A stretch of 64,000 nt of DNA, taken from the NCBI RefSeq assembly GCF_900184965.1, contig NZ_FXYA01000199.1, positions 1 through 64,000 on the forward strand. Direction: 5' to 3'. The stretch is from Akkermansia muciniphila. Its GTDB lineage: Bacteria; Verrucomicrobiota; Verrucomicrobiia; Verrucomicrobiales; Akkermansiaceae. This document shows, one piece after another, positions 28,775 through 35,666 of this stretch. The notes beneath the pieces are model-generated. The model was not told the origin of the DNA. It searched no databases and was given only the letters and a program-made list of their open reading frames with translations. Each line of letters begins with the position of its first letter. Position 1 is the stretch's first letter. Position numbers and translations under genes: made by a program.

Positions 28775-31540
28775 ATGCATGCCTCCATCTTCTCCAAACT
28801 CCCTCCGGAGGAAATTACGGCGCTCCATCAATCATGGAAAAACGATCCCCTGTCCGTAGATCCTCTCTGGGCGGCCTGGTTCGAGGGCTACGAACTGGGG
28901 AGCGGAGAAGCCCCCGGGAAAAAAGAAAACACAGGGACCGATGCGGACACGTCCCTTTACACCGTTCCTCCGGAAAGCGCGGAAGGCCGCGGGCGCGTCA
29001 ACCAGCTCATCCGGGCCTACCGGGTCATGGGACACCAATGCGCCCGCTTCAATCCGCTGGAGCCGCCGGAGCGGCCCCGATTCCCCGTCACCCCGGAGGA
29101 TATGGGATTCCGAGAAGAGGATCTGGACCAGCCCGTCAACATCGGCACCTTCATGGACGGAGGAACACTCACGCTCCGTGAAATCATCAATCGGCTGCAA
29201 AAAATCTATTGTGGAGCCATCGGCTTTGAATACCACCACATAGACAATCTGGAAATCCGCTCCTGGATTGAAGAAAAAATCCAGCTCCGGGCAAACGGCG
29301 TGGATTATGGCCCGGAAGTCCGGAGAGAAGCCTTCTTCCATCTCTGCAGGGCGGAACTGTTTGAGGAATTCCTGGGCAAGCGCTTCATGGGGGAAAAACG
29401 CTTCTCCCTGGAAGGAGGGGAAGGAGCCATCGTCCTGCTGGACGCCATGATCAAGCGCTGTCCCGCCGCCGGAGTCTCCCACATTGAAATGGGCATGGCC
29501 CACCGCGGAAGGCTGAATGTGCTCGCCAACATCCTCCACAAACCGCTGAAAACCATCTTCCACGAATTCACGCCGGACTACCTTCCGGAATCCCCCATCG
29601 GCAGGAGCGACGTCAAATACCACCTCGGCTACGCCGCCACGCGCCACGTGGACGGGCATGACCTCCACATCCGCCTCTCCTCCAACCCCAGCCATCTGGA
29701 AGCCGTGTATCCCGTGGTGGAAGGCAGAGCCAGGGCCATGCAGCACAACCTGCAAGACGCGGAACGCAAGCATGTGCTGCCGCTCGTCCTGCACGGAGAC
29801 GCCGCTTTCTCTGGGCAGGGAATCGTGGCGGAAGTGCTCAATCTTTCCCTGCTGAAAGGCTACCGCACGGGCGGCACCGTGCACCTTGTCATCAACAACC
29901 AGATCGGCTTCACCACCGGCCCGGACGAAGCCCGCTCCTCCCGCTACGCCACGGACGTGGCCCAGATGCTCCAGTCCCCCATCCTGCATATCAACGGAGA
30001 AAGCCCGGAAGACCTGGTATGGGCGGCGGACTTCGCGCTCCAGTTCCGCCAGAAATTCGGAAGGGACATCATTCTGGACATGTACTGTTACCGCCGTCTG
30101 GGCCACAATGAAACGGATCAGGCCGCCTTTACCGCGCCCTTGCAGACCAAGCGGATTGGGGCGCGTCCCACCGCCGCAGCCCTGTACGGAACGGCGCTCA
30201 GGGAACGCGGGGAATTGACGGAACAGCAGGAGCGGGACATCCGGAAAGACCTTTGGGAAGGCATGGAACAGGCCTACCTGCAAATGAAGGAAAATCCCGA
30301 GGACTACCTCCTGCCCGCCACCGCGCAGGATGCGGATGAAACGCCCATCCCGCGTACCAGCATACGGACGGGAATCAGCCCGGAGTTGTTCCAGCGCATC
30401 GGAAATATCCTTACGGAACTGCCGGACGGCTTCACGCTCCACCCCACGCTGGAAAAACGCTTCCTGGCTCGCCGCAGGGAGGCCTTCCGGGAAGGCGGAC
30501 CGCTGAACTGGGCCATGGCGGAATCCCTGGCCTGGGGCAGCCTGCTCGCGGAAAACCACACCGTGCGCCTGTCCGGCCAGGACTGCCAGCGCGGCACCTT
30601 CTCCCAGCGGCACGCCGTCCTGCATGACTTCAATGACGGCTCCCTGTACATTCCTCTGGAAAAGCTGAACCACGGCACTACCGCGTTCCGCATTTACAAC
30701 TCCTCTCTGTCGGAAGCCTCCGTGCTGGGCTTTGAATACGGCTACGCACTGGACAACCCGGACGCTCTGGTCATGTGGGAGGCCCAGTTCGGGGACTTCG
30801 CCAACGGAGCACAGGTTATTGTGGACCAGTTCATTGCGGCCGCGGAGGCCAAATGGCGCCAGAAAAACCGCATGGTGCTGCTGCTGCCCCACGGCTATGA
30901 AGGGGCGGGCTCGGAACACTCCAGCGCCCGCATGGAACGCTATCTCCAGCTTTGCGCGGACGACAACATGCAGGTCATCAACCCCACCACCCCGGCCCAA
31001 TACTTCCACGCCCTGCGCCGCCAGGTGCACCGAAATCTGCACAAGCCCCTGATCGTCTTCACGCCCAAAAGCCTGCTCTCCCGTCCGGAGGCCGTCTCCC
31101 CGCACCGGGAATTTCTGGCTCCCTCCCGTTTCCGCGAAGTGCTCCCGGACCCGGACGCTCCCGCGCCGGATCAGGTGACGCGCGCCGTCTTCTGCACCGG
31201 GAAAGTTTATTATGACCTGGCCGCCTGCCGGAAGGAACGGAATATTGCAGACACGGTAATCATCCGTCTGGAACAAATCTATCCTCTGGCCCGGGAACAG
31301 CTCACCTGCCTGCTGGCACCCTACCAGAAAGTGCGCGACTTCGTCTGGTGCCAGGAGGAACCCTCCAACATGGGGGCCTGGGGCCACCTGCGGAACAGGC
31401 TGGGGCGCCTCTTCGCCACCTCCTTCCGCTATGCGGGACGGCCGCCCATGGCCTGCCCTGCGGAAGGAGCCAAGGCCCTGCACGCCGCCGCGCAAAAAAG
31501 ACTTCTCGCCGCTGCCTTCGGGCCGCGGGCGCAATCCTGA
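28775..31540 (+). CDS. sucA: 2-oxoglutarate dehydrogenase E1 component
   Basis: 921 residues, the full length of SucA. TPP-dependent decarboxylase features are visible: the MGMAHRGRLNVLANI region, LHGDAAFSGQGIV, HLVINNQIGFTT, and SVLGFEYGYALDNPDAL. It oxidises 2-oxoglutarate and transfers the succinyl group to SucB. It sits between cydAB and sucB. The long antisense frame opposite it is a codon-composition shadow. Presence of SucA indicates that the oxidative branch of the TCA cycle can be run. Confidence 0.95.
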   Translation: MHASIFSKLPPEEITALHQSWKNDPLSVDPLWAAWFEGYELGSGEAPGKKENTGTDADTSLYTVPPESAEGRGRVNQLIRAYRVMGHQCARFNPLEPPERPRFPVTPEDMGFREEDLDQPVNIGTFMDGGTLTLREIINRLQKIYCGAIGFEYHHIDNLEIRSWIEEKIQLRANGVDYGPEVRREAFFHLCRAELFEEFLGKRFMGEKRFSLEGGEGAIVLLDAMIKRCPAAGVSHIEMGMAHRGRLNVLANILHKPLKTIFHEFTPDYLPESPIGRSDVKYHLGYAATRHVDGHDLHIRLSSNPSHLEAVYPVVEGRARAMQHNLQDAERKHVLPLVLHGDAAFSGQGIVAEVLNLSLLKGYRTGGTVHLVINNQIGFTTGPDEARSSRYATDVAQMLQSPILHINGESPEDLVWAADFALQFRQKFGRDIILDMYCYRRLGHNETDQAAFTAPLQTKRIGARPTAAALYGTALRERGELTEQQERDIRKDLWEGMEQAYLQMKENPEDYLLPATAQDADETPIPRTSIRTGISPELFQRIGNILTELPDGFTLHPTLEKRFLARRREAFREGGPLNWAMAESLAWGSLLAENHTVRLSGQDCQRGTFSQRHAVLHDFNDGSLYIPLEKLNHGTTAFRIYNSSLSEASVLGFEYGYALDNPDALVMWEAQFGDFANGAQVIVDQFIAAAEAKWRQKNRMVLLLPHGYEGAGSEHSSARMERYLQLCADDNMQVINPTTPAQYFHALRRQVHRNLHKPLIVFTPKSLLSRPEAVSPHREFLAPSRFREVLPDPDAPAPDQVTRAVFCTGKVYYDLAACRKERNIADTVIIRLEQIYPLAREQLTCLLAPYQKVRDFVWCQEEPSNMGAWGHLRNRLGRLFATSFRYAGRPPMACPAEGAKALHAAAQKRLLAAAFGPRAQS

Positions 31541-31555
31541 ACCCATCTTCCTCCC

Positions 31556-32683
31556 ATGAGCGACATCCTGACTCCCAACTTTGGAGAATCCGTCACCTCC
31601 GCCACCGTAGCCGCGTGGCACAAGAACGCCGGCGATCCGGTAGCCAAAGGCGATACGCTGGTGACGCTGGAAACGGACAAGGTTTCCACGGATCTGGAGG
31701 CGGAAGAAAGCGGCGTACTGGAAATCCTCGTTCCGGAAGGGGAAGAAGCCCTTATCGGCGCAGTTCTTGGCCGCATTTCTTCCGCTGACGGAACCGCAGC
31801 CGCACCGGAAAGGGAAGCTCCGCTCATACCGCTTGAGCCGAAAAAAACGACCTCGCCGGAAACACGGGAGGCCCCCGTTTCCGCGCCTTCCGCCCCAGCT
31901 GCGGAATTTCCGGGACAAAAGCCACACGGGAAAGTCCCCCTTCCGGAACAGGTTCCTGCCGGAGAGGACAGGGAGGCAGAAAAGGAAATTGCTCCACGCT
32001 TCATCAGAAAACCCATGAGTCCGCTGCGCCGCACCATCGCGGCCCGGCTGGTGGAGGCCCAGCGCCAGGCGGCCATCCTCACCACGTTCAACGAATGCGA
32101 TATGTCCTCCGTGATGGAACTCCGCAAACAATTCCATGCAGAATTCCGGGAACGGCACGGAACCAAGCTTGGTTTCATGAGCTTCTTTATCAAGGCAGTA
32201 GTCAAGGCCTTGCAGGAAGTGCCCCAGGTCAACGCCAGAATTGACGGCGCGGACATCGTGGAAAACCTGTACTATGACATCTCTGTAGCCATTGGCACGG
32301 ACAAGGGCCTCGTCGTCCCCGTGCTGCGGGACTGTGACCGGAAAACGTTTCCGGAACTGGAACAGGAACTCGCCGTCCTGACGGAAAAAGCACGTAGCGG
32401 AAACCTGTCCATGCAGGACCTGCAAGGCGGATGCTTTACCATTTCCAACGGCGGCACGTATGGATCGCTTCTTTCCACCCCGATTCTGAACCCTCCCCAA
32501 AGCGGCATTCTGGGCATGCACGCCATTCAGGAACGCCCCGTGGTCCGGGACGGCCAAATCGTCGTCCGGCCCATGATGTACCTGGCCCTTTCCTACGACC
32601 ACCGCCTGGTGGACGGCAAGCAGGCCGTGCAATTTCTCGTTGCCGTCAAAAACGCCGTGGAAAATCCAGTATTCGAGTTATGA
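31556..32683 (+). CDS. sucB: Dihydrolipoamide succinyltransferase E2, no visible E3-binding domain
   Basis: 375 residues, shorter than the usual ~400. Residues 1-76 form the lipoyl domain with the lipoylated Lys42 (ETDKVST). The catalytic domain is ~155-375 with SYDHRLVDG, its His about residue 349, and [14 protein letters not shown]. Between them, residues ~78-150 are a Pro/Glu/Ala linker. The usual peripheral subunit-binding domain (about 35 residues with VRRLA..., GTGKDGRI-type motif) is absent. How lipoamide dehydrogenase docks is then unclear. Assembly with SucA is supported by the 15-base spacing. Confidence 0.93.
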
Positions 32684-34271: not shown

Positions 34272-35666
34272 TTACATGTGGATGGCAATTCCCTCGGAAG
34301 CCAGCATGGATTCATGGATGGCCTCAGACAGCGTGGGATGGGCAAAGATGGTGGCGTGGATGTCCTCGTCCGTCAGTTCCGCCTGAATGCCGATGCCCAG
34401 CGCGGCAATCAGCTCCGTGGCTTCCGGCCCCACGATGTGGGCGCCCAGGAGTTCTCCGTTTTTGGCGCCGTACAGGGTTTTTACGAAACCGTCCGGTTCT
34501 CCGGCGGCTACAGCCTTGCCAATGGCCTGGAAGGGGAATTTCCCCACCTTGTATTCCACGCCCGCCTCTTTGAGGGCGCGTTCCGTTTTACCTACGGAAG
34601 CCACCTGCGGGTAGCAATATGTGCAGCTCGGAAAAAAGCCCACCTGCCTGGGCTGATAGTCCGGATTAAACATGCCCTCTACTGCCTGCACAGCTTCAAA
34701 AGAAGCCGTATGCGCCAGCAGCACGCCGCCGATCACATCGCCTGCCGCATACACGCCGGGTATGGAAGTCGCGTAGCGGTCATTCACCTTGATGAATCCC
34801 TTTTCCGTCAGCTCCAGGTCCAGGCCGGGCGCGGCGGGAACAACCGGCTTCACGCCGATGGCCACCAGGCAGACATCCGCCGTGATTTCCTCTTCCTGTC
34901 CCCTGCTGTTTTTTACGCTGGCCCTGACCTGTCCGTCACAGGTTTCCGCAACAGATTCCACGGAGGCTCCCGTCATCACCTTGATGCCCTGCTTCTTGAA
35001 TGCGCGTTCCAGCGTCATGCAGGAGTCGTCGTCTTCATTGGGAAGTATGCGGGGAAGCGCTTCAATAAGCGTCACTCTGGTGCCGAATGAATTGTAAATG
35101 TAGGCAAATTCCGTGCCGATGGCCCCGGAACCGATGATGATCATGCTTTCAGGCCGCTTTTCCAGCACCATGGCTTCCCTGGAGCCGATGACGGTAGTGC
35201 CGTTCAGGGGGAGGCTGGGCACCGTGCGGGTGACGCAGCCGGTACAGACCAGGATATTCTTTCCCTCCAGAACATTCACCGTCCCGTCGGCGGCCTTTAC
35301 TTCCACCCTGCCGGGAGAAATGATGGAGGCTTCCCCCGTAACGGAATCCACCTTGTTTTTCTTGAACAGGAACCCCACGCCGCCGGCCAGGCGGTCGCTG
35401 ACCTTGCGGGAACGGTCGATCACTTCGCTCCAATCCACGCTGACGCCCTCCACCGTCATGCCGAATTCCCTGGCACGGGCCGTTACAGTCAGGTAGGCCT
35501 CAGCGTTTTTCAGAAGCGCCTTGGTGGGGATGCAACCCCAGTTCAGACAGGTGCCCCCTACCCGCTCGCGTTCCACGCACACCACGGATTTCCCCAGCTG
35601 GGCGGCGCGGATGGCGCCCACATAGCCGGCAGGGCCTCCACCAATGACGATGAGATCATATTGCAT
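34272..35666 (-). CDS. lpdA: Dihydrolipoamide dehydrogenase E3
   Basis: 464 residues. N-terminal FAD GxGxxG (GGGPAGYVGAIRAAQLG), redox pair GGTCLNWGCIPTKALL, NAD-binding IIGSGAIGTEFAYIYN near 180, AAGDVIGG, and the C-terminal HPTLSEAIHES with the catalytic His-Glu pair. It reoxidises the dihydrolipoyl group of SucB (and of any pyruvate dehydrogenase or glycine-cleavage H protein). Encoded on the opposite strand 1.6 kb from sucB, separated by the GyrI-like gene, hence separately transcribed. Confidence 0.97.
   Translation of the reverse strand: MQYDLIVIGGGPAGYVGAIRAAQLGKSVVCVERERVGGTCLNWGCIPTKALLKNAEAYLTVTARAREFGMTVEGVSVDWSEVIDRSRKVSDRLAGGVGFLFKKNKVDSVTGEASIISPGRVEVKAADGTVNVLEGKNILVCTGCVTRTVPSLPLNGTTVIGSREAMVLEKRPESMIIIGSGAIGTEFAYIYNSFGTRVTLIEALPRILPNEDDDSCMTLERAFKKQGIKVMTGASVESVAETCDGQVRASVKNSRGQEEEITADVCLVAIGVKPVVPAAPGLDLELTEKGFIKVNDRYATSIPGVYAAGDVIGGVLLAHTASFEAVQAVEGMFNPDYQPRQVGFFPSCTYCYPQVASVGKTERALKEAGVEYKVGKFPFQAIGKAVAAGEPDGFVKTLYGAKNGELLGAHIVGPEATELIAALGIGIQAELTDEDIHATIFAHPTLSEAIHESMLASEGIAIHM

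Follow-up and report, generated by a model that had tools for sequence, protein, structure and literature searches.

In the textbook picture, E3 is attached to 2-oxoacid dehydrogenase complexes through the peripheral subunit-binding domain (PSBD). The usual bacterial SucB, the dihydrolipoyllysine-residue succinyltransferase or E2o, carries it, without the domain being defining for E2o as a whole; the SucB of Chlamydia is also short. As far as the excerpts of the papers drawn on in this text go, prokaryotic E2o has been said to preserve the PSBD throughout and eukaryotic E2o to lack it (PMC9974300, 2023), with MRPS36 explained as the eukaryotic substitute for the domain (PMC9974300). The nearest bacterial precedent for a 2-oxoglutarate dehydrogenase whose succinyltransferase has no PSBD of its own, differently built, is the actinobacterial PDH-ODH hybrid of OdhA and AceF, in which the succinyltransferase is without a lipoyl/PSBD arm and relies on an E2p that binds Lpd via its PSBD (PMC10581250). 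In the eukaryotic pyruvate dehydrogenase (PDH) complex E3 is brought by E3BP (protein X), which has been called a eukaryotic gene and for which an E2-like topology, an E3-specific PSBD and an inactive core and/or M3-like motif have been named as criteria (PMC10156792).

The stretch of DNA analysed here, 64,000 nucleotides of Akkermansia muciniphila and in the following called the window, encodes a 375-aa SucB (31556..32683, plus strand; Pfam and NCBIfam) which lies above both curated cut-offs of the NCBIfam E2o equivalogs (NF004309, 481.2 versus 449 bits; TIGR01347, 456.8 versus 378.65 bits). Directly upstream on the same strand is sucA (28775..31540) for the 921-aa E1o, which passes NCBIfam NF006914 with 1123.4 bits against a cut-off of 764. 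A 1266-aa open frame, probably a by-product of codon bias, runs antisense to sucA-sucB (28832-32632, minus strand). Pfam, read down to E<=10, places a Biotin_lipoyl domain at SucB residues 3-74 (31562..31777; PF00364, 57.4 bits, with a weak additional Biotin_lipoyl_2 match) and the 2-oxoacid_dh acyltransferase or catalytic domain at residues 150-371 (32003..32668; PF00198, 276.8 bits), whose active-site motif HRLVDG corresponds to HxxxDG. Within the lipoyl domain stands ETDKV, which we take to be the lipoyl-lysine motif and whose modifiable lysine is the predicted lipoylation site. As in the usual bacterial SucB, lipoyl and succinyltransferase domains are thus present, sucA adjoins and the equivalog cut-offs are passed, but the PSBD is absent and the linker is shorter. 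Unlike in the actinobacterial hybrid, SucA is not fused to SucB, and the lipoyl domain of SucB is retained.

The two domains are joined by 74 residues (76-149; 31781..32002) with 51% Pro, Ala and Glu, in agreement with the first-pass annotation, which had described a Pro/Ala/Glu linker of about 75 residues without an E3-binding motif. The absence of a PSBD from this SucB is confirmed by three approaches: Pfam at E<=10 gives no match to E3_binding, a local PSBD profile derived from relatives finds, in an unfiltered run, nothing above 3 bits in the SucB frame, and the AlphaFold2 model, predicted from an alignment of 48 rows of which 40 match E3_binding at E<=0.1, has pLDDT <50 at residues 80-139 and no helix in residues 76-155. 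A cryptic or very divergent PSBD within the linker, the outcome that the first-pass annotation had named as able to overturn its claim, is rejected on these results and is most improbable; the gap between the lipoyl and catalytic profile matches is moreover 77 aa, shorter than in every PSBD-bearing SucB scanned (at least 88 aa), and all that speaks for decayed versions is a resemblance seen by eye elsewhere in the phylum, where four of five SucB linkers of family f7 hold an RITKEEA- or RMTREES-like stretch (one reads RITKEMA) similar to the second half of a PSBD. In L288-L291 of that family the stretch is perhaps a PSBD relic. By its conserved domains, the SucB of the window appears to be a genuine E2o that has lost the E3/E1-docking PSBD. 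It resembles mitochondrial E2o (DLST), described in the excerpts as PSBD-less with an unstructured Pro/Ala linker (PMC9974300, PMC9681731).

PSBD-less SucB is unusual among bacteria at large, but not among the relatives of the window. Among 80 named SucB loci, a set made up of those closest to the query and hence weighted towards its kin, 79 keep the lipoyl part, 72 carry a PSBD by the local profile and seven do not, namely six from Verrucomicrobiota and, outside that phylum, the one of Gluconobacter morbifer (L172:5983-7128). With Pfam, 40 of 48 aligned SucBs match E3_binding and eight do not, that of the window included; the local profile likewise leaves eight of these 48 without a PSBD, an agreement in number, and single Pfam scans of ten proteins agree with it (three with, seven without). 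In the earlier surveys a local-profile score above 8 bits counted as a PSBD, in the phylum set one above 5 bits; L193 and L226, which are without the lipoyl part, were excluded from the counts, and L232 is an E2p. Within the order, SucB is PSBD-less in 19 of 19 rows of family f1, to which the window belongs (13 of these rows come from its genus), in 21 of 21 of f4 and in both of f3, and family f2 has six SucBs with and three without the domain; the choice of rows fell mostly on those with no coincident PSBD row among the matches listed, and the numbers are not frequencies.

The survey of Verrucomicrobiota E2 linkers that the first-pass annotation had proposed was made on a phylum sample fetched irrespective of PSBD, in which 74 of 194 genomes have a SucB at E<=1e-75, a threshold that may miss divergent ones. 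Scanning 70 of the 74 (15 earlier and 55 new; the four left out, G167, G174, G235 and G321, all belong to f23) gave PSBD-less SucBs in six of 22 Verrucomicrobiota families (f1, f4, f7, f10, f14 and f51) and PSBD-bearing ones in the 16 others; all 12 SucBs of f1 and all three of f4 in this sample are without the domain. Linkers measure 35-94 aa without and 88-137 aa with a PSBD in the first survey, and 56-109 aa without and 90-184 aa with it in the phylum set. The claim of a PSBD kept throughout prokaryotic E2o is therefore contradicted for several bacterial families, and a separate bacterial E2o lacking the PSBD was not found described in the open-access literature. In some family relatives (L114, L115, L220 and L222) SucB has two lipoyl domains and lacks the PSBD. 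In the genus of the window, a true SucB (E below 1e-100) is found in only 11 of 59 genomes and the rest, some of them incomplete, appear to be without.

As 14 of 15 outgroup rows on the SucB tree have a PSBD, loss is the likely direction of change. On trees for which near-copies had been thinned, gain and loss of the PSBD need seven changes on the best tree and four on a smaller one, and the starred branches force only one; Gluconobacter stands as a separate case on a long branch, and the clade of the window includes a named Akkermansiaceae bacterium. Several independent losses are not established by the seven-change tree, since the data are compatible with a single origin of PSBD-less SucB in Verrucomicrobiota (AU p 0.085). 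The loss dates far back in this phylum, and a shorter linker goes with it. Unlike mitochondrial E2o with MRPS36/KGD4, the PSBD-less form described here arose among bacteria most of whose outgroup rows carry the PSBD, and has no KGD4 over the cut-off at its side.

How is E3 brought to such a complex? The gene for the 464-aa E3, lpd (34272..35666; NCBIfam), lies about 1.6 kb downstream of sucB on the minus strand, apart and opposite as the first-pass annotation had it, but this location carries little weight for an unusual recruitment, because lpd is the only frame above the lipoamide-dehydrogenase cut-off in the whole genome. It is from the missing PSBD of SucB that a different recruitment of E3 follows; that E3 cannot come via a PSBD of SucB is well supported by Pfam, local profile and AlphaFold2, and any alternative route is putative. 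A candidate contact is the N-terminal motif of SucA (residues 16-40; 28820..28894, plus strand), which reaches 25.3 bits with PF16078, under the 27-bit cut-off, and which would be similar to a region of human E1o that touches E2o and E3: residues 18-40 of the human protein have been proposed as candidates binding both (PMC8146983), and mammalian E3 is said to bind the N-terminal region of E1o (PMC9681731), in each case according to the excerpted text. By this analogy SucA may be a reasonable, if unproven, holder of E3. The further suggestion of the first-pass annotation, that E3 contact may occur via SucA, is thus possible with a similar motif kept; however, the N-terminus of SucA is of the usual short form in Verrucomicrobiota both with and without a PSBD in SucB, the motif is found in both groups and no added domain was seen by eye in the N-terminal alignment, so that the comparison does not discriminate.

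We hold with moderate confidence that SucA and SucB assemble as usual and that E3 is loosely held via the N-terminus of SucA or comes from the free pool. The N-terminus of SucA would bind the SucB core, in the manner reported for E1o enzymes elsewhere; the lipoyl arm would carry the succinyl group from SucA to the SucB core and would then be reoxidised by the single shared Lpd, which, untethered by E2, would most likely bind weakly via the N-terminal region of SucA or visit from the free pool. The absence of the PSBD by all three approaches, its distribution in the phylum, the presence of one Lpd and the unextended N-terminus of SucA speak for a loose or free E3. Against it stand the non-specificity of the SucA motif for PSBD-less species, the loss of the proximity that a PSBD gives if E3 is free, and two other PSBDs in the genome that could act in trans.

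It is, on the other hand, quite unlikely that Lpd is bound by a small adaptor so far unrecognised or by a surface site of the SucB core. Mitochondria have been proposed, in the excerpt at hand, to solve the same problem through MRPS36 (PMC9974300), but the corresponding KGD4/MRPS36 family is over its cut-off in none of 113 genomes of the order, which also speaks for a loose or free E3; a KGD4-like adaptor is represented by seven weak matches at E<=0.1, none of them in the genome of the window. Nor did an operon-encoded adaptor stand out around sucAB in 15 loci (14 PSBD-less and one PSBD-bearing; for six, the start of sucA-sucB was a rounded position chosen by hand): no separate small gene common to at least three loci was seen at E<=1e-6, a search that a divergent or distant one could escape. 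What at least three loci did share were an approximately 315-aa gene upstream of sucA, frames that overlap this gene or sucB, and, in three loci, larger frames.

The search of the whole genome for PSBDs gave two matches at or over the cut-off, with 44.7 and 23.6 bits. The weaker one is a divergent PSBD in the E2, with active-site motif, of a PDH-like E1alpha-E1beta-E2 set (L009:3565-6861, contig C108 of genome G000), in which E2 is preceded by E1beta and, from position and BLAST, by E1alpha. This PSBD scores 23.6 bits, or 23.9 with neighbours, at a cut-off of 23.7, and has a three-residue insertion in our own alignment; it is alike in 11 rows of the genus from ten genomes. The stronger one belongs to a 346-aa protein, here termed DE2, with a lipoyl domain, a PSBD and a degenerate acyltransferase core (L008:8871-9911, minus strand, contig C125 of G000). 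A neighbouring gene, in our own reading, resembles nagA and adjoins DE2 in three other loci too.

Searched for in the genus of the window, DE2 was found in 50 of 59 genomes. Its profile aligns nearly end to end with that of E2p (hhalign, probability 100, E 6.1e-39), the E2p motif DHRVVDG falling on NASILPE, and in profile comparisons its core is closer to E2p than to E2o. None of 30 DE2 loci (L079-L108) shows the active-site pattern H[RK]xx[DN]G; among the 24 aligned DE2s only two match 2-oxoacid_dh at E<=0.01, and the proteins share a conserved hydrophobic C-terminus of the NPVxLLL type. The E2p genes read from outside the genus are intact, with E1alpha- and E1beta-like frames preceding them in L110, L111, L119 and L121. 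Given the alignment with E2p, the replaced motif and the intact E2p outside the genus, DE2 looks like an E2p that has lost catalysis. It is unlikely to be a decaying pseudogene and appears to be kept under purifying selection, as judged by median dN/dS values in eight species with SucB of 0.10 for the whole protein, 0.078 for the lipoyl domain, 0.22 for the PSBD and 0.088 for the pseudo-core; in 11 rows without SucB the values are 0.15 for the PSBD and 0.245 for the pseudo-core, at high dS. DE2 shares with E3BP the E2-like domain order, a lost active-site motif with a predicted inactive core, and a retained PSBD, present in all 24 aligned DE2s by E3_binding, where the E3BP criterion asks for an E3-specific one; at the position where human E3BP has Ile for the Arg of E2, DE2 has Lys or Arg (alignment by eye). 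Unlike E3BP it is bacterial, E2p-like by profile and in many copies without a lipoyl domain. No report of a bacterial E3BP was found in the open-access literature.

A lipoyl domain accompanies DE2 only in species with SucB, namely in all ten of these that have DE2, as a separate frame in G088; in all 40 DE2s from genomes without SucB the match begins only at residue 60-95, and a lipoyl domain is found in none of 20 loci read. The constant part of DE2 would accordingly be PSBD plus pseudo-core, as a tether would need. The DE2 of G088 is divided between two frames (L087 and G088:C110:49444-49725), its lipoyl part lying apart from PSBD and core, and in G076, which has SucB, the lipoyl lysine of DE2 is replaced by Tyr.

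Could DE2 supply the PSBD in trans, co-assembling with SucB and bringing Lpd to it as E3BP does in the eukaryotic PDH complex? It is the strongest PSBD of the genome, the retained PSBD, the missing active site and a pseudo-core conserved at a dN/dS of about 0.09 where SucB is present would suit such a role, and the restriction of its lipoyl domain to species with SucB is suggestive; yet this restriction rests on one change on the DE2 tree, and the core resembles E2p more than E2o. DE2 is kept in 40 of 48 genomes without SucB (and in ten of 11 with it), so that its main partner must be another complex, and PSBD-less SucB stands beside an intact E2p in f4 and in other genera of f1. G041 (99% complete) and G146 (82%) furthermore have SucB without DE2 in a profile search at E<=0.01, which recovered DE2 from both genomes where it was expected and gave none in G058, and this weakens the view of DE2 as an obligatory tether of SucB. 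G041 has a single PSBD, in a 426-aa frame like the contig C108 E2, and its PSBD-less SucB without DE2 speaks for loosely held or free E3; G146 has no PSBD anywhere at E<=0.1, perhaps because it has no PSBD-bearing E2 or because of an assembly gap. Delivery of Lpd to SucB by DE2 is in sum unlikely. Because most relatives without SucB keep DE2 and the nearly complete G041 has SucB without it, DE2 probably does not serve mainly SucB, but probably serves the PDH-like complex of contig C108; an acyltransferase match taken as the PDH-like E2 is present, among the matches listed and with its position mostly not given, in 24 of 24 genus genomes. That the genus has re-invented the mitochondrial arrangement, with a PSBD-less E2o and a dead E2 paralogue as a bacterial E3BP handing E3 to the PDH-like core and, where SucB is present, to 2-oxoglutarate dehydrogenase, is conceivable and rather doubtful.

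With a loosely held or free E3 as the preferred reading, a domain known from textbooks has been lost from a central enzyme of these bacteria, and the loss is conserved; relatives within their order carry the PSBD. DE2 could be a bacterial counterpart of E3BP, which the excerpted text describes as a eukaryotic gene (PMC10156792). Such bacteria allow two questions to be put directly to the test, namely if the complex requires any tether and if SucA is able to hold E3.
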